Source: Cokeromyces recurvatus
Taxonomy: Eukaryota; Mucoromycota; Mucoromycetes; Mucorales; Mucoraceae
Length of the DNA: 45,048 bases
Assembly (NCBI RefSeq): GCF_025118155.1
Contig: NW_026251436.1
Location: 100,001 to 145,048 of the forward strand
Direction of reading: 5' to 3'
Of the stretch, positions 1,638-45,048 are shown piece by piece. The first letter of the stretch is position 1, and every line of letters begins with the position of its first letter. The position numbers and the translations under genes were made by a program. The notes under the pieces were generated by a model. That model ran no database searches. It was given only the letters and a program-made list of their open reading frames with translations, and was not told the origin of the DNA.

Positions 1638-1710
1638 AGCCCAACGGGGGGGTCGAACCCCCAACCTTGAGATTAAGAGTCTCACGCTCTACCGATTGAG
1701 CTAGCTAGGC
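1638..1710 (-). tRNA. tRNA-Lys, anticodon CTT
   Basis: The minus strand folds as a standard cloverleaf. The 7-bp acceptor stem GCCTAGC/GTTGGGC has two G-T pairs. The D arm runs from GCTC to GAGC. The anticodon stem TGAGA/TCTCA encloses the loop CTCTTAA, giving anticodon CTT for lysine AAG. The T arm GGGGG/CCCCC carries the TTCGA loop. Internal A and B boxes are intact and no intron is present. A TATA-like stretch lies about 32 to 37 bp upstream of nucleotide 1 (at about 1742 to 1747 on the plus strand). A CACTA-type transposon begins after 58 intervening bases on the 5' side. Confidence 0.96.
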
Positions 1711-1768
1711 TCTTTGATGCCTGTGTAACCAGTATTAAAAATATATAGAAAAATTATGTAATTTCGAC

Positions 1769-1805
1769 CACTGCAAATAAAGTCTACTTTTACAATTGTA
1801 AAAGT
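1769..1805 (+). repeat. Left terminal inverted repeat of element 1 with start of subterminal palindrome array
   Basis: This end pairs with 4623 to 4660 apart from two substitutions near the tip, one A/G change further in and one single-base gap. It contains the perfect 18-bp palindrome CTTTTACAATTGTAAAAG at 1787 to 1804. Further copies of the ACAATTGTAAAAG and GGTGACC words continue to about 1855. Such subterminal repeats bind transposition proteins in plant CACTA elements; that role here is inferred. Confidence 0.85.
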
Positions 1806-3018
1806 TTGTAAAAGGTGACCCAGTCACAATTGTAAAAGGTGACCTTTTACAATCGAAAATTGAAAATTGGAAGTTTTAAAAAATTTTTATACCAAATGAA
1901 AGAGAAAAATTTGCTCATTTCGAATATGTTAAAATTTTTTTATTTGGTTAAGAATTGATAGAGATATTAGCATTTAAAGATTTGTTTAATGGTTAAAAAA
2001 TATAACAATTTTTTGGGTATAGTCTTTTTTACTAGAAAATAAATTTAGAATCCCGATTTTTTTTTACTTCAAATTTTATTGGACAAAAATTTTATATTCT
2101 GAATTCAAAAGAAGTTGAAAAAATAATAATAATAGCAATAATTCATTCAAGATGAATGTTTAAAATGTAAAGTTGTAATAAGTCTTTTTTTAAGAAAAGG
2201 TCAAATTATTTAACTTTTTCAAAAAAAATTTATTAAAAAAATAATAAAAATTCAAGTCAACATGTACAGTAATGAGTTATGTATAATGTCAATTGTTAAA
2301 ATCAAACTTATATTATTACTTTACAATAAGTTATTTTATCTAGTAAGATTAATTTGTCGTACTTAATATTTTTTTTTTTTTTTGTTGAACATAATGTCAA
2401 AATGTCTAATTGCCATTCCAAAATCAACTTGAATGTAGATGGAAAAATTAAAATATACCCCTGCTAAAGTATTTAAAAATAATAAAACTATTTATTATTT
2501 TTCAAATGAAAGATGCATCATCCGATTGTTAGTAATTTATTTATTTATTTTTCGTAAAGATAAGTAAAATGAAAGGGAATTTTTTACTGCATATATAAGT
2601 TTTAACTACAGCAATAAATTTAGTTATCTGTAAAAAAAATATTTTCTCCTTTTTTTATTATCTTATACTGATTATTAACATCTCAACTTATAAATTTATA
2701 AATTCATTGCAACATGTCTGTTTAATTAAACAAAGATCAATGTGAATGGAAATGATTAACTTGTTCTCAAAGTAGACTTAGATATAAGGTTGTTTACAGA
2801 CATACTATCTTTATCTATATTCATATATTCATTAAAAATTGATAAGAGTCTTGAAGATGCAATTACCAATGAACATAGTAAACAACAATAATAAGTATTC
2901 ATTGCAGATGTTACAATTAATAAATGTAATCACGCTAGCTTTTTTTTTTTATTTTGAATTATAAAAATAACCACTGCTGTTCGTTTTTTTTTCTTTTTTT
3001 TTTGTCATCGCACTAAAG

Positions 3019-3114
3019 ATGTCTATAATGCAAATGAAGAGTCGATTGCTGACAATGGTAATGACATTAATTTTATTGGATTAGAATATTTAGAAGATAA
3101 ATATATGGTTGAAA
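3019..3114 (+). pseudogene. Transposase-like exon remnant in element 1
   Basis: A 96-bp open exon sits between an AG acceptor (3017 to 3018) and a GTATGT donor (3115). Read with one leftover base from an earlier exon it gives 32 residues, including DVYNANEES and NFIGLEYLEDKYMV. Its start (D-V-Y-N-A) resembles the second transposase exon at 45029 in element 3 (E-E-I-F-Y-D-A), which also follows an AG acceptor in the same phase. No intact first exon like that at 44762 is found upstream, although an ATG-TAC beginning appears at 2262. I read it as part of the same gene in a decayed copy. Confidence 0.45.
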
Positions 3115-3729
3115 GTATGTATTAGTTATTAAAAGAAATAGTATTGTTATAATAACTTCTGTGTAAGCTATTTATGCTAACTTTTTTTATATAGTATGCT
3201 TTGTATATGACTTTGGAAATTGTTATATAATTACTTCGGCGATAGAATACATAAATGAAAGACTTCTTTGTCAGCTTATACAAATGCTTTAATAAGACTT
3301 TTTGTTTCTAAAAATTTTTTACTTTATTTCTTTTTACTTGTTTCTTTTTTTTCCTTCTTGTTTTCCTTTTTTTTCTTTTTTCTTTTTTTTTGAATTAGTA
3401 CTTAGGATAAATGACTTGAGATGATATACAATCCAATTGGTAAGTAACTTAGCACGGTTTGATTATCCCCGGCGAACATGTAATGAACATGGTTAGCTCT
3501 TTATATTTAAAGAAAAAAAAAAACTATATTCTAATCAATATCTTTTTTTTTTCAAATAGTTTTACTGTATACTTTGAATCTTTGGCGTTTTGCCTTTTAT
3601 AATGACTAATAGCGAATTATATAAAATACGTAAATAATAAAGATAAGGTAAACATAACATAAATATATCTTTATATCTTACTAAAGTTGTTTTAATGATA
3701 ACATCAACTAAACTTTTTTTTTTGTTTAG

Positions 3730-4070
3730 GCGTTAAAGGTCTATCTTTATAGCCTTTTCTCTTGTGGTGACCGATTACAAATAAAAGGTAAATAATATAA
3801 TAAGCATACTAATTATTATTTTAAACGCGTAAAATATTTATTAATCTTTCTTATCTTTTATTTAGGTAAGTGAAAAAAAAACTATTCTGCTTTGGTGGCC
3901 GTTAACGTGTAAAGAAATGATAACTTCTTTTCTAATGGTAAGAAACTAAAATATAATTTATTTGTTTTTTCATTGACTAAATCGTATTTTATTTTATTAT
4001 AGGAAGAATTCTATTATGAAAGAAGCTATCTATGGTCCTCTTAATGACTCTATTACGCGTTATCTCGGTC
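3730..4070 (+). pseudogene. Decayed exon series in element 1
   Basis: Coding-like pieces bounded by splice-like sites follow one another. One lies at 3730 to 3787 (ALKVYLYSLFSCGDR...), between an AG acceptor and a GTAAAT donor. A second starts at 3866 and ends at about 3939 before GTAAGA (contains TILLWWPLTCKEM). A third starts near 4003 (contains EEFYYERSYLW) and soon hits a stop. The reading phases of the first two do not join. They are best taken as broken exons of an element-encoded protein that I do not recognise. Confidence 0.35.
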
Positions 4071-4109
4071 CTTTCCATGGCGTATTTATTCTATTTTTTT
4101 GGATACATT

Positions 4110-4205
4110 TTTATATACATTTTTTTAAATATTTTTTATATATTTTTTATGTATTTTTTTATGTATTTTTTCATGTATTTTTTTATATATTTTTTTACGC
4201 GTTTT
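4110..4205 (+). repeat. Low-complexity T-rich tandem repeat
   Basis: Repeats of about 12 to 14 bp built on TATGTATTTTTT, roughly six imperfect units, lie inside element 1. The overlapping open frames here, rich in Phe, Tyr and Ile, are artefacts of this repeat. Confidence 0.7.
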
Positions 4206-4449
4206 ATAGTATATAATAATATAATATTTTATATATCGTAAAAGGAAATAATAAACGAAAATAAATAAAATCGTATTTTGAAAAAGAATATAAGCTCCAT
4301 TATCTACTGTATTTTAAAGAAGTCTAAAATGTATCATAATATAACGAATAAGCAAACGTTTAATTTGAATGTAAAGGCCAATAAGAGTAAAAAAACGTAA
4401 AGGAATGACGAATATTAAAGAAGCGTAATCCAATAGAAGCTTTGAGCTA

Positions 4450-4622
4450 TGAAGCAAAATTTTGTAAAAGGTGAACTTTCATGATTGTAAAAGGTCTACT
4501 TTCAGTATAGTTTCACAATTGTAAAAGTATACTGACTTGGTCAGGTTGTATCATTGTAAAAGGTCACCTTTTACAATTGTGAAAGTATACTGAAACTTTA
4601 ATGAAAGGTCACCTTTCAGTCT
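4450..4622. repeat. Right subterminal palindrome array of element 1
   Basis: Several copies of ACAATTGTRAAAG alternate with the 7-mers GGTCACC and GGTGACC and with stretches of TATACTGA or TAGACT. One near-perfect palindrome is at 4568 to 4585. The same words occur at the left end (1787 to 1855) and at the left end of element 3 (42778 to 42850). Confidence 0.8.
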
Positions 4623-4660
4623 ACTTTCACAATTGTAAAAGTAGACTTTTATCTCCAGTG
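4623..4660 (-). repeat. Right terminal inverted repeat of element 1
   Basis: Read on the minus strand this begins CACTGGAGATAAAAGTCTAC and matches the left end. The plus-strand end is ...CTCCAGTG, followed at once by the GAC target duplication. Confidence 0.85.
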
Positions 4661-4663
4661 GAC

Positions 4664-38897: not shown

Positions 38898-40113
38898 TAA
38901 AGTTAAACTGAAAATAATAATAAAAATGAAAAATGATAATAAAAAAAATATAAAATAAAAAATAAAATAAATATAAATATAAAATAAAATAAAAATAAGA
39001 AATGGCAGAATATTATAAATGTAAATTATATAATAAATTTGTGTTAATTCAGTTCATATAAAACATGCATATGAGTGGTTTATGCCCAAAGGCGAAATCG
39101 CCTCAGACTAAATAATATCCGTTAAACTATAATATTAACAGTTGGATAATATTTTTCTTTTTCCTTCCTACTTTTACCACCTCCCTGATATACAAATATA
39201 TATGTACATATTTATATAAAAGGATATAAGCACAAGCATACATTATCATTCTTCTGACCTCCCCACTTTTTTTTTTTTAAGTACAATATAAGCCTCTCAA
39301 AAAAAATAATATCGAATGCTGTATAATTTACCTGCTTTATATTTTTATTATGTTGAAAACATGTGTTCTTTTTGTGTGTGTGTGCGGGAATTAAAAGAAT
39401 ATCAGGCACAAAATAATAATAATAATAATATAATAAAACAGGTTAAAAAAAATTGTTAAATTTACTTATATTGTTGCTCCAGATATATTATCAAAAAAGC
39501 ATGTTAGCCTGTTGTAATTTATATATTCATATGCCGTTATTATAAAATATATATGAATATACATATGTGTATACATATTATATCATATATTATATTATAC
39601 ATTATATTATGTCTTATTATTCGTTTCAATTAGACAAATACTCCTATTTTTCTGCCATAATAAATACAATATTAATGAGAAATAATTTATCTTCTTCTTT
39701 TCCGGAATATTATATTTTAGACTAATTCACTTGCGTTACATTAAAATTCTGATTTTGTGTTTCATTACTAAAGAAAAAAAACTATTCTACTTTATTTGTT
39801 GTCAACAAGTAAATTTATTAATATACAATTATTTAAATCACAATTGTTCACAGAAAAAAAGAAGAAGGGGATTGAATAACGTGATAGTAGTAGTAACGGT
39901 ACTTGATCATTAACAACAATGTGGTTAATTTTTAGTTGCATTTTTTAATGACGTTATTATTTTAATAAACTTTCATTAATCAATAATTAATCTGTTGCTA
40001 TCAACGCAAAATAAAAAGGCTAAGCTAAGTTTTGAATCACAAGATAATTACTTCATTTAAATGTTAAAAAAAAATTACCGCACAAAAAAAAAAAAAAAAA
40101 ATCAAAAAGTTAT
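38898..40113. other. Intergenic AT-rich DNA before tRNA-Glu
   Basis: No gene is supported. Contents include poly-A and AAAT-rich stretches at 38935 to 39000, a TA-rich palindromic area at about 39540 to 39610, and an A run at 40083 to 40100 just 3' of the tRNA-Glu gene. T5 (minus strand, 40104 to 40108) is the likely Pol III terminator. Confidence 0.6.
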
Positions 40114-40185
40114 TTCCCCATCGGGGAGTCGAACCCCGGCCGTGTCGGTGAAAGCGACAAATCCTAGCCGTTGGACCAATGAGGA
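40114..40185 (-). tRNA. tRNA-Glu, anticodon TTC
   Basis: The minus strand folds into a cloverleaf. The acceptor stem is TCCTCAT/ATGGGGA with one T-G pair. The D stem is GTCC/GGAT. The anticodon stem TGTCG/CGACA encloses the loop CTTTCAC, giving anticodon TTC (glutamate GAA). The T stem is CGGGG/CCCCG with loop TTCGACT. The sequence closely follows eukaryotic tRNA-Glu. No intron. Exactly 58 bp upstream of nucleotide 1 a CACTA-type element begins. Confidence 0.96.
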
Positions 40186-40800
40186 ACTTACATTAATGTC
40201 GTTTCTTGACTTCTTGAGATACAAAAGAGTAAAACTTTAGACCCACTACAAGTAATGAAAATATTCCGCAACTGAAAACATACGTAAAACAAGTCTTTTT
40301 GCTGAGTTTTAAGTGATTTTTTCAAAAAATGATTATTTCGTCAACTTATTACTAGTAAACATGAAAATAAAATTAATATTAATTTTTTTATCATATACAA
40401 GCTTTTATATATCTAAAAAAAACTACAACTTTATAGCAAAAATTGATTATTTTATAGCAATTTTAATTTTACAGCCTTTTGGCAGTATTTAATTTTCATA
40501 GAGAAATTGGGAGAAAAAAAATTAATTGACCAATAAAAGTCCTAAAAATAAAAAAATAAACATTCAGCTGGAGTTAAAATGACGTTTTTATTTTTTTTGG
40601 TTCTTTCACCCCCACAATTTTCACTTGTAATTTCAGCATGCTAAAAAATTAACTTTTTTTTTCTTCTACAAACAGTTAGACATAAATTCTTATATAATAT
40701 TTCATACATGACAAGAAAAGATAACTATTATAAAAGTATACAATACATATAATAAACAAAAAAAATAATTTTGCATCTTTATTTAATTTAGTCATTTCGA

Positions 40801-40836
40801 ATGTAAATGTAAATGTAAATGTAAATGTAAATGTCA
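40801..40836 (+). repeat. ATGTAA hexamer array
   Basis: Five perfect ATGTAA units followed by diverged ones, inside element 2. Related ATGTAAAAAA words mark the start of each unit of the longer tandem repeat that follows. Confidence 0.85.
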
Positions 40837-40860
40837 ATGTAATTGTAAACATTAATGGAA

Positions 40861-41240
40861 ATGTAAAAAAAAAAGTAATCTCATAGATGCATGTTAATTG
40901 TCCCTAAAAAAATACAAAACACTTTCAACCATATTTAAATGTACACATACATATTATTACGTTACTACGACTGTTATTTGTTCAGTTTAAAATGACAAAA
41001 AACATTATGTCAATGCATTACTATTGAACTAATGTAAAAAAAAAAAGTAATTTCATAATTGCATGTCGAATTAACTGTGTTCAACTATATTTAACTGTAT
41101 ATATATATTATTCTCTTATTATAGCTGTTATTTGCTCAGTTTAGAATGACAAAAAAAATATTATGCGAATGCATTACTAATGAACTAATGTAAAAAAAAA
41201 GTAATTTCGTAAATGCATGTCAAATGATCTACATGAAATG
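40861..41240 (+). repeat. Tandem repeat of about 160 to 170 bp, 2.3 copies
   Basis: Units start at 40861, 41032 and 41188, each opening with ATGTAAAAAAAAA then GTAATYTCRTARATGCATGT. The first two share ACTATATTTAA-type, TGTTATTTG and GTTTARAATGACAAAAAA segments, then GCATTACT and GAACTAATG. The third is partial. Lies inside element 2. Confidence 0.85.
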
Positions 41241-41639
41241 TCCAAATTTCAATGTAATCGTTAATGAGTTCTAATTTACAATTATTTAATAATATATTAT
41301 TCTTTTACTAATGTTTCTATTTTATGGAATACGAACGATAACTTGTAAACAAAAAAAAGTACATGAACAATAACTAATAAAGAAAATTGTGGGGGAGAAT
41401 AAACTTATTGTAAACTTTAATTAGACAATTTTAATTAGTGCTAAAAAATTTTTTTAGTCCCTTTTTTTATTTTTTTTATCTTTTCTTTCTTTTCATTATA
41501 TTGTAATAACATGCTTTTTTTCTATTATTTCTATTTTTTAGAATTTATTTTTTACTAGGTAATTGTTAATATATAATTGTAAATAAATAATATAAACTAA
41601 ACAAACATAATGTATTCACTTTTTCATTTTATTTTACAG

Positions 41640-42181
41640 AGATATTGAGATTCTATTAAAGAATACTGCCTCTTGGTAACAGATAAAAAAAAAGAGAGAG
41701 AAAAGGTATATCATCAAGGCTTTTCTTCTTTTTCAAGTTATTGAAACTAATTTTGTATATTTATATTTAGATAAAGCTTTTTATTGTATTGTCTATCCAT
41801 TGAATACAAATGATCAAGTGTTCTCTTTTACAATCAATTGAATAATATGGTAAGTTTCTTTTACAACAATAATTCAACAAGTATTATAAAGTATATATAT
41901 ATTTACTCATTATTATTTAATCATGCTTAGATGGCTCTTGTTCTATTCAATAGATAGATATACTAATAAAAACTTTTATTTTCTCTTTATATTAAAGGTA
42001 AATATCATATTACAAGGGCTAAAATCATATATATAACATGTCATAATTAGTAACTTGTCTTTATTTTTATCATTTAGGTAGACATTTATATCCTGGTAAT
42101 ACTGAATAACTAACTACAGATCAAATGGCTAAATCAATGGTAATCTTGGCTACTACTACTAAAGTTATATTAACTCAAGGT
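41640..42181 (+). pseudogene. Decayed multi-exon gene inside element 2
   Basis: Coding-like pieces flanked by splice-like sites, but with stops. After CAG at 41639 one reads DIEILLKNTASW to a GTAACA donor. After TTTAG at about 41771 one reads KAFYCIVYPLNTNDQVFSF then a stop. After TTTAG at about 42078 one reads HLYPGNTE, a TAA, then LTTDQMAKSMVILATTTKV up to a GTAAGT donor at 42180. Probably a transposon-encoded or captured gene that no longer works. Not recognised. Confidence 0.4.
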
Positions 42182-42539
42182 AAGTATGTCGTTGTATTAT
42201 AGTATATATTATTATATATTTTTTTTTGCCATTATCATTATTATATAATATTCTATAACCCAATTTCAAATAAATAAATAAATAAATAAATAAATAAAAA
42301 GCCACATTTTTTTAAAAAAGAAAAGCTGTATAAACAAGGGCATTATAAGCCTATTAAACGTTAAGGAAGTGCAAATAATGAGCCAATAATGCAAACAGAT
42401 TTGTATAATAAAAGCCTCAATTGAGTATAAACATCTTTAATAAGATCCAATTATAAGTAAGAGTAAAGATATGAATTACGACGTTAGAGACCAATGATAA
42501 AGGCAGTTGCTAGCGTAATATCGTTGTCCCCCCAAAAAT

Positions 42540-42735
42540 AATAACCTATAATAATCACCAAAAGATACGTTTTACGTATTATCAGAATTGCGGAATACAC
42601 GTTTTCGGTAGTTTTCAGTGGACGTAAAACGATCGTTTTACTTGTCGTTTTCCGCAAGTACCGAATACTTTCGTATTACGTGTTGCGTAATACGAGACCG
42701 AAAACGATCGTTTTACGTATAGTTCTCCGCAATAT
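42540..42735. repeat. Right subterminal palindrome array of element 2
   Basis: A less AT-rich block with the perfect 18-bp palindrome GTAAAACGATCGTTTTAC at 42624 to 42641. A second core, AAAACGATCGTTTT, is at about 42701 to 42714. Several ACGTAATACG, TTTTCGGTA and TTGCGGA words occur. It plays the same structural part as the CAATTG palindromes of element 1. Confidence 0.85.
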
Positions 42736-42758
42736 ATCACAACTCTTTACTTGTAGTG

Positions 42759-43801
42759 GACCACTGCAGATAAAGTCTATTTTCACAATTGTTAAATGTT
42801 TGTAAAAGTAGACCTTTCACAATTGTAAAAGGTGACCTTTTACAAGAATTTTCGAAAATTGGAATATTAAAAAAATCATACCTTCTGAAAGCGACATTTT
42901 TCTGATTCAGAATGTATTTATTTTATTTTATTTGGTCAAGAATTCATCGAGTTATTATCATTTGGAAGTTTACTTTTCGCTTACATGCAATGCAAATTTC
43001 TGGGGTTTACATATTTTTTTATTGAGAATGAAATTGAATTTTATTGATAATCCCTTCAATAATTGTGATTGGCTAAATATGCATAGTGATAATTTTTTTT
43101 TTAATCTTGTTACTTTTTTTTTTTTTTACAACAAAGTCGTGAAGTATGCGTACCTATTTTTGTTATAAAATATATTCTATTCAATTTTAGAAGAGGGCAT
43201 AAGCATGTTATATGAGCATTTAACGTACATTAAAAAGTTTCAACAATAAAGGTGAATATTTTTTCTATTAATTTGCTGAAAGACGCTTTAAATAAATTCG
43301 TTAAAGCTTTGAACATAATAATGCGTCTATAAAAAATATAATTTGTTTATATTTAAAATAAAAAATAAATAAATAAAAGTTATCGACTATACAAAAAGAC
43401 GTCGCAATGGTTAAATTTGCAAATAAGATTGTTGCTAATGCCTGATGACAACTGTCCCATTGAGTAATTCTCTTACATTTATAAAATGTTTTCTTTAATT
43501 GAAATGACTTGCTAGTATTACTATAATATTCTTAACTGATTTATCTTTTCTACTTTTTATAATATAATTTTTTTGCATCCTAAATTCTATTTAAACGTTT
43601 TAACAATTTATAATAAAATCGTTCCATTGTTAATTATAAATTGAATAAAAAACATTAAAGCACATATTGGTTGGTGATGGGTAGCATTAAGTCATTGTTA
43701 GTTAATTACAATGTGCGAAGTCGTTGTTAATTCATTGCGAGTAGATGTTATATTTTTATTTTGAAATTAAAAGAAATAAAAAACGTAAGCGTTTACTGTT
43801 G

Positions 43802-43851
<50 letters not shown>

Positions 43852-44024
43852 TGCATGCTAAATTTAAATACAGACGGGAAGTGCTTTAGATGCAAAAGAT
43901 AAGGAACGAGAAAACAGAAAAGACAAATCTGTGAAAACTCTGAATAGTTTATTGAAAGAAAAATTATACAAAAACTGTATAAAAGAAAAAATAATATGAA
44001 AAAATTGACAATGGCTATTTATCT

Positions 44025-44065
<41 letters not shown>

Positions 44066-45048
44066 ATGTTAAGTGATATTAATAAAAATATGACTTGGAT
44101 AAATGATTGCTGGTATAATAGAACATTATACATAAACATTATCTCTGAATAATTCTGCTTAACAATAAGATATATTTTTATCTTTATTCTCCCTGAGCTA
44201 TTGCTGTTACTAGAAATGAAATATTTCAAATTATTATTTTTGAAGTAAGTAACGCGTTAATACTAATTCACATTGAATATTCCAGCTATAACCAATACCA
44301 ATTATTTATATGCTACTATTATGATCATTCTCTAAAGTGTTATTAAATCACAATATTCAACATTGTAGTTGTATATATAATATGTATGACTTGTATAAAT
44401 AATTATGTAATTGAATATAACAGTCATAATCCTATTGAAATCTTATTGTTACATAATATAATGCATGTAACTATTATTAATACTTAAATACTATAACCAT
44501 GACTATTATTAAAACTGAATGTTGAATGAATGCAATGCTTTGAAGTACAATACGCTAATTTTATTTGAATAGCTTCTTCATTATTTAATAAATTATAGTT
44601 TATTTCTATTAACTTGGTTGTAAATACAACTACAGTCATAACAGGAAGCGTTTGAAATTGAACTAACTTAAAAGTTAATAATTATTTGCCTATATATTAC
44701 CTTGATCTGATTAATATTTTTAATTTAATATTATAACCTTCTTTTTTCTCTTTATGTTAACATGTACAACTCGTTAAGTAAAGACCAAAGAGAATGTAGA
44801 TGCTCAACATGCTCTACTACTGAGCTAGGATACTTAGTAGTGCATAGGCATACTGCTCGTGCTCACAAGCAAATTGATGAGCAATCCATTGTTGTAGAAG
44901 AAGGTATGCAAAGTTTACATTATTATAGCAAAATGATATATTAGAATTAATAAAGTATTTAAACTAATGAACTATCTCTGAAAACTCTTTTTTTTTTATT
45001 GAATCAATTGTTATTAATCGCTATACAGAAGAAATATTTTATGATGCT
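42759..45048 (+). mobile_element. Element 3: left part of a CACTA-type transposon, same family as element 1
   Basis: A GAC at 42759 to 42761 is followed by CACTGCAGATAAAGTCTATT, nearly the same as the start of element 1. The likeness continues for about 200 bp: ACAATTGTAAAAGGTGACC, CGAAAATTGGAA, ATTTGGTYAAGAATT, then TTATCATTT against TTAGCATTT. The right end is not in the window. The interior is AT-rich with two long T runs (43805 to 43849 and 44031 to 44063). A probable transposase gene starts at 44762. The GAC is shared with the right flank of element 2. Confidence 0.75.
44762..45048 (+). CDS. Transposase N-terminus (CACTA type), runs off the window
   Basis: Exon 1 is 44762 to 44903, ending in a GTATGC donor. 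Exon 2 starts at 45029 after a TATACAG acceptor, in phase, and runs off the end. The first 47 residues contain C12-x-C14-x2-C17, then H28 and H30, and H35 (ECRCSTCSTTELGYLVVHRH). This fits a small zinc-binding motif of the kind found at the N-terminus of Tnp2-like transposases. Exon 2 begins EEIFYDA, resembling DVYNA of the exon at 3019 in element 1. The gene lies 2 kb inside the CACTG terminus and points away from tRNA-Glu. Alternative: a non-transposase accessory protein of the element. Confidence 0.55.

Follow-up and report, generated by a model that had tools for sequence, protein, structure and literature searches.

Transposable elements that insert at a set distance upstream of tRNA genes are best known among retrotransposons. 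TRE5-A, a non-LTR retrotransposon of Dictyostelium, inserts 40–54 bp upstream of tRNA genes in a single orientation and is reported to contact TFIIIB proteins, and in Ty3 and its relatives, which are Ty3/gypsy LTR retrotransposons, the position at tRNA genes is likewise set by TFIIIB, with Ty3 inserting 1–4 bp from the RNA polymerase III (Pol III) start (PMC5911963). DNA transposons that use tRNA genes have been described as Dada elements (PMC3706591). The CACTA/EnSpm superfamily of DNA transposons is defined by CAC..GTG ends, 3-bp target duplications (2–5 bp in the wider clade) and a Transposase_21 domain with C(2)C and HxxxH motifs (PMC12730594, PMC1636069), and its transposase has motifs in common with RAG1 (PMC12730594). 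In the literature searched, the elements described as lying upstream of tRNA genes at a constant spacing are retrotransposons; none of the matches listed concerned a CACTA or other cut-and-paste transposon in such a position.

Here, CACTA elements lying near −58 of tRNA genes (counted upstream from tRNA nucleotide 1) are a genome-wide rule in the mucoralean fungus Cokeromyces recurvatus. Like TRE5-A, these elements occupy a fixed zone upstream of the tRNA gene in one orientation, but in contrast to TRE5-A, which moves through an RNA intermediate and encodes an APE/RT protein, they belong to the DNA transposons, with inverted ends and a transposase of the DDE type. This genome also has its own Ty3/gypsy-type element, which, like Ty3, lies close to the gene, with an LTR tip at −12 of a tRNA-Arg gene. 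Ty3 inserts near the transcription start by means of an integrase, whereas the CACTA elements lie some 46 bp further up and use a transposase. With Dada they share being DNA transposons tied to tRNA genes. However, insertion inside an RNA gene by sequence with 6–7 bp duplications, as described for Dada, was not what we found, and the Dada transposase is assigned to another superfamily.

The window, by which we mean the whole 45,048-bp stretch analyzed, is the end of one contig (C46) in a 28.05-Mb genome of 64 contigs, and both of its tRNA genes are occupied (Table 1). The initial annotation placed element 2, which starts with CACTACAAG, 58 bp from nucleotide 1 of tRNA-Glu and reported the same gap between element 1 and tRNA-Lys; both measurements hold. 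Its description of the two families as unrelated-ended is too strong because every end has CACTR. Neither element 1 nor element 2 contains an ORF of at least 120 aa. The termini of element 2 match, and the element is flanked by GACC on both sides. Element 3, which the initial annotation had missed, lies directly behind it, so that two CACTA elements are stacked at tRNA-Glu, and because element 3, a member of element 1's family, abuts element 2, this gene has been used twice. No right end of element 3 is present within the window, as it lies beyond the contig end. Likewise missing from that annotation are the 46 bp of LTR between tRNA-Glu and element 2, which recur at a tRNA-Lys gene (L049) and match an end of the 311-bp LTR that is present complete, with its 4-bp duplication, at L063/L107.

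Table 1. Features of the two tRNA loci of the window, and exact CACTA left ends displaced from tRNA genes (contig coordinates)
Feature	Position	Strand	Remarks
tRNA-Lys (CTT)	1638..1710	-	ARAGORN; nucleotide 1 = 1710 by covariance model
Target duplication GAC, proximal copy, element 1	1766..1768		
Element 1, non-autonomous CACTA, 2,892 bp, start CACTGCAAATAAAG	1769..4660	+	left end at −59 from tRNA-Lys
Target duplication GAC, distal copy, element 1	4661..4663		
tRNA-Glu (TTC), anchor gene	40114..40185	-	ARAGORN 40113-40186; mature end = nucleotide 1 at 40185
LTR, first 46 bp (TGTCG...TTTAGAC)	40197..40242		tip at −12 of tRNA-Glu
Target duplication GACC, proximal copy, element 2	40240..40243		
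Element 2, non-autonomous CACTA, 2,515 bp, ends CACTACAAGTAATGA...TCTTTACTTGTAGTG	40244..42758	+	left end at −59, facing tRNA-Glu
Target duplication GACC, distal copy, element 2	42759..42762		last C = element 3 base 1
Element 3, family of element 1, left end CACTGCAGATAAAGTC	42762..45048	+	window and contig stop at 45048
Displaced left end	C46:142762		behind element 2
Displaced left end	C26:68889		behind 311-bp LTR
Displaced left end	C20:363582		behind F3 element
Displaced left end (presumed)	C13:76999		behind another CACTA end; tRNA 9.2 kb on

The spacing was examined in a sample of tRNA genes not chosen by flank, consisting of 63 genes scored by covariance-model search plus tRNA-Glu, from a genome that has more. 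Of these 64 genes, 62 were tabulated for YAGTG ends, and the other two were read later (L086, with an end at −58, and L095, with none). A YAGTG end is found at −57 to −60 in 11 of the 62, seven on the minus and four on the plus strand, whereas 16 fall in the remaining 316 upstream positions. Circular shifting of the 62 flanks, repeated 3,000 times as a control, never put more than 5 ends into the fullest 4-bp band. Chance is thereby rejected as the cause of the spacing, as the initial annotation had argued from its two loci, and without the two window genes the band is still occupied in 9 of 60. In all, 29 CACTA-type ends were collected at −56 to −60 (mean −58.07, SD 0.94), with 2 at −60, 7 at −59, 12 at −58, 7 at −57 and 1 at −56. 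For three loci (L085, L109 and L114) a surplus ARAGORN base was trimmed at each tRNA end, which turns −56 into −57. These ends belong to seven end-families (F1, 12; F2, 5; F3, 5; F4, 4; F5, F6 and F7, one each) and lie at tRNA genes for 13 amino acids (Lys, Glu, Thr, Gly, Met, Phe, Gln, Arg, Leu, Tyr, Val, Asp and Ile). Other tRNA genes thus do carry ends near −58, the opposite of the outcome that the initial annotation had named as refuting its proposal. The collection took only ends 55–61 bp from a tRNA gene; outside that range the same flanks show YAGTG at −36, −79 (L050), −84 and −104 in the 62 genes, where they count among the 16 ends outside the band, and at −46 in L082, none of them with a known family end. 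The 9-mer CACTACAAG by itself is not enriched genome-wide, with 126 matches compared with 184 for its reversed control; the signal is the longer end together with its position.

Searches that left the distance free gave the same band. A pattern search allowing 29 spacings returned 21 matches, of which 17 lie at tRNA genes, all at −56 to −59 (4 already known and 13 new), and four were set aside by eye from their letters as not being tRNA genes. The bare count of 21 proves little because the reversed-pattern control gave 15 matches; it is the tRNA genes under the 17 that carry weight. Sixteen of the 17 are on the forward strand and one on the reverse, which may be a trait of the search. Three further searches used left ends with no tRNA term and returned 36 exact matches: 16 for F1 (25 matches in all, control 0), 13 for F2/F3 (34 in all, control 6) and 7 for F4 (13 in all, control 0). 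Of the 36, 25 face a tRNA gene at −56 to −60 (F1, 11; F2/F3, 10; F4, 4), four are separated from a tRNA gene by a later insertion, one of them presumably so (Table 1), and seven lie elsewhere, at no recognized tRNA gene.

Many tRNA genes also host an LTR that has TGTC...GACA ends and its tip near −12, and these LTRs make it possible to separate distance from local sequence. Insertion of the LTR pushes the native flank away, so that −58 then falls about 46 bp inside the LTR. LTR A is present as two copies 5.3 kb apart around a Ty3/gypsy pol at the tRNA-Arg locus L032, with its tip at −12; a single 311-bp LTR in L107, flanked by a 4-bp duplication, supplies both end B and end C; and D and E, presumed to be LTR ends, are 46-bp stretches, each common to two unlike tRNA genes, that end in CGACA near −12. 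LTR tips near −12 are seen at L032, L063/L107 (tRNA-Ala), L025, L049, L065, L066, L075 and in the window. The B/C LTR is found near tRNA genes in both orientations, as a single 311-bp LTR in L107, and the full Ty3/gypsy-type copy is the one in L032.

In 15 of the 29 cases the CACTA element sits inside such an LTR module (A, 4; B, 4; C, 3; D, 2; E, 2), and the mean distance is −58.0 in these flanks compared with −58.1 in the other 14. The C5 copy is flanked by LTR A on both sides, which runs to position 47 on one side and resumes at position 45 on the other, with the duplication GGT, and in C1 (F3) and C35 the LTR resumes beyond the element with a 1-bp overlap; no LTR remainder was seen in the right flank of the L025 element. 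C26 shows the opposite arrangement: here a 311-bp LTR and its 4-bp duplication separate tRNA-Ala from a CACTA end at −372, and subtraction of LTR and duplication returns the end to −57. A single nucleotide of an LTR can also be hit by two families, namely F1 with F3 in A, F1 with F5 in C and F4 with F6 in D. The six bases adjoining the element carry 0.07–0.23 bits each, leaving no target consensus, and a sequence motif at the target is rejected as the cause. Because LTR-nested copies keep −58 after the native DNA has been replaced, it is distance to the tRNA gene, not sequence, that sets the insertion site. The proposal of the initial annotation that a spacing common to unlike-ended families is set by something on the tRNA gene is thus well supported, by seven end-families, 13 amino acids, one distance, the absence of a target consensus and the LTR-replaced flanks.

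The same copies bear on the idea that the tether is a factor bound to a conserved upstream motif (TCACGTGA, TGACGTCA or ATTGG, mostly at −46 to −80) and not the Pol III complex. Among 49 unoccupied tRNA flanks (L020–L079), TCACGTGA ending within −35 to −100 is present in 27, in fact at −40 to −79, which is the CACTA insertion zone, with a TGACGTCA-like motif in 8 and ATTGG in 18. In addition, CACGTG is found beyond the element both at the native site in C23, where AGG flanks an F2 element on either side, and at element 1 of the window. However, 11 of the 29 occupied genes have a proven LTR (A, B or C) at −58 and four a presumed one (D or E), and the distance is unchanged. The upstream motif is displaced in these cases and is therefore rejected as the main tether; we regard this explanation as very unlikely.

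Where the two ends of a family can be told apart, the elements have one orientation. All five exact F2 left ends face tRNA genes, whereas none of the four F2 right ends found does, and each of the five F3 ends seen at a tRNA gene is of the left type. Among F1 and F3 right ends, 12 flanks were fetched and contain no tRNA gene. For 4 of the 17 F1 right-end matches the outer flanks were read; in F5–F7 the two ends are not distinguishable, and right-end flanks were fetched for part of the matches. All six transposase genes about 2 kb from a recognized tRNA gene start at the tRNA side. These data also weigh on the still less likely possibility that the elements simply enter open, nucleosome-free or mechanically favorable DNA before tRNA genes, with no specific contact. 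The flanks of tRNA genes are indeed nucleosome-poor, but 11 ends in 4 bp compared with 16 in the other 316 positions is too narrow a distribution for such a region, and an open region would not account for the single orientation. Of 15 copies read on both sides, seven have a 3-bp duplication (GAC, AGG, GGT, CCA, CAC, TTA and TTA), element 2 has 4 bp and seven have 0–2 bp. Repeated use of a single tRNA gene was also seen.

Least credible of all is that tRNA genes and their CACTA neighbors were copied together by duplication or gene conversion, such that one old insertion was counted repeatedly. Longer flanks are shared in some pairs (two tRNA-Phe genes and a tRNA-Gln gene, with element sequence 98–100%), and unlike LTR flanks on the two sides of C56 F3 (L093/L154) and C1 F2 (L082/L123) suggest ectopic recombination between tRNA loci via shared elements, but co-duplication is rejected on the diversity of families, LTRs and flanks: different families share one LTR nucleotide, a given family is found in more than one LTR end as well as in flanks of other kinds, the occupied genes serve 13 amino acids, and copies read on both sides outside LTRs have unlike sequence beyond both ends.

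Membership of the elements in the CACTA/EnSpm superfamily follows from their CAC..GTG termini (CACTA/G), the 3-bp duplication and the Transposase_21 domain. The L025 copy encodes a 757-aa open frame with Transposase_21 (PF02992, E 7e-12) and the motif order D, D, C(2)C, HxxxH, E. A phylogeny of 10 transposases from this genome and 23 homologous sequences, with two short sequences of this genome left out, places the tRNA-linked transposases of F1 and F4 in two separate deep groups, both of which include members not seen at tRNA genes. Because these groups are deep and separate, tRNA targeting is either old or arose twice. Transposase relatives are present in Mucor saturninus, Rhizopus and Phycomyces. 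Of 24 transposase matches in the genome, six lie beside a recognized tRNA gene and 18 have none at the expected place, some of the latter being near contig ends (at least C28 runs into one). Of these 18, the left end of C55 falls on an LTR end beside which ARAGORN accepts no tRNA gene and C7:141729 has its end elsewhere, while the 16 fetched 5′ flanks have no tRNA gene and mostly no visible CACTR end. At this C55 locus (L106, C55:14.3 kb) the LTR end is C and a B-box-like GGTTCGAATCC comes after it, and the locus is perhaps a decayed tRNA gene.

The preference for tRNA genes is not absolute. Some exact left ends away from tRNA genes have real 3-bp duplications (C17, CAC; C24, TTA; C7, TTA). 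Among nine one-mismatch F1 matches, all with flanks fetched, one faces a tRNA gene, one lies on an LTR end with no recognized tRNA gene and seven do neither; eight fetched flanks from the 21 one-mismatch F2/F3 matches (three F2 right ends, L123–L125, and L126–L130, a further match being the right end of element 2 itself) contain no tRNA gene, and none of the six one-mismatch F4 matches, all with flanks fetched, is at one. A sub-family close to F4 with ends CACTRCGAAAAG (L117, L119–L122) has none of its five copies at tRNA genes and provides a built-in comparison for working out the requirements of targeting. Two palindromic miniature elements of about 90–100 bp with F1-like ends CACTGCAGATAAAGTA (L103 and L104, at C26:248.7 kb and 252.0 kb) are also off tRNA genes. 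Other known Pol III RNAs as hidden targets of the copies away from tRNA genes were rejected, as Rfam searches of 20 loci gave only below-threshold miRNA- or snoRNA-like matches. Neither of the two U6 genes is occupied, and 5S rRNA has no match in the assembly. Fixed-distance placement whatever the local sequence was thus found for tRNA genes only.

Collectively, these data make it very probable that CACTA (EnSpm) transposons are guided to 58 ± 2 bp upstream of tRNA genes, the likeliest route being the Pol III initiation complex. The LTR tips near −12 suggest that Pol III starts near that position, which would place the CACTA site about 46 bp upstream of the start. In yeast, a site about 46 bp upstream of the start falls just outside the region covered by TFIIIB, and a CACTA site so placed would favor docking on TFIIIB or a neighbor. 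From the sequence evidence we infer that the transposase, alone or with the element ends, most likely docks on the Pol III initiation complex, with TFIIIB, or a neighbor of TFIIIB, as a plausible partner. The transposase would then cut just past the upstream edge of the complex and leave the left end toward the tRNA gene, and the letters of the target would hardly matter. Autonomous copies would mobilize short copies such as elements 1–3.

Targeting at a fixed distance from Pol III genes, known as a retrotransposon trait, is here seen in a DNA transposon superfamily, and the LTR-nested copies amount to a natural experiment in which distance and sequence are uncoupled. The finding raises the question of how a transposase of the cut-and-paste kind recognizes a bound complex, and makes these elements a candidate for gene insertion at low-risk sites. 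For the family, it is probable that CACTA transposons acquired a Pol III-complex docking like that of Ty3 and TRE5-A in two deep lineages (F1 and F4), and that they share tRNA genes with LTR elements of the start site, both kinds of guest stacking without spoiling their targets.
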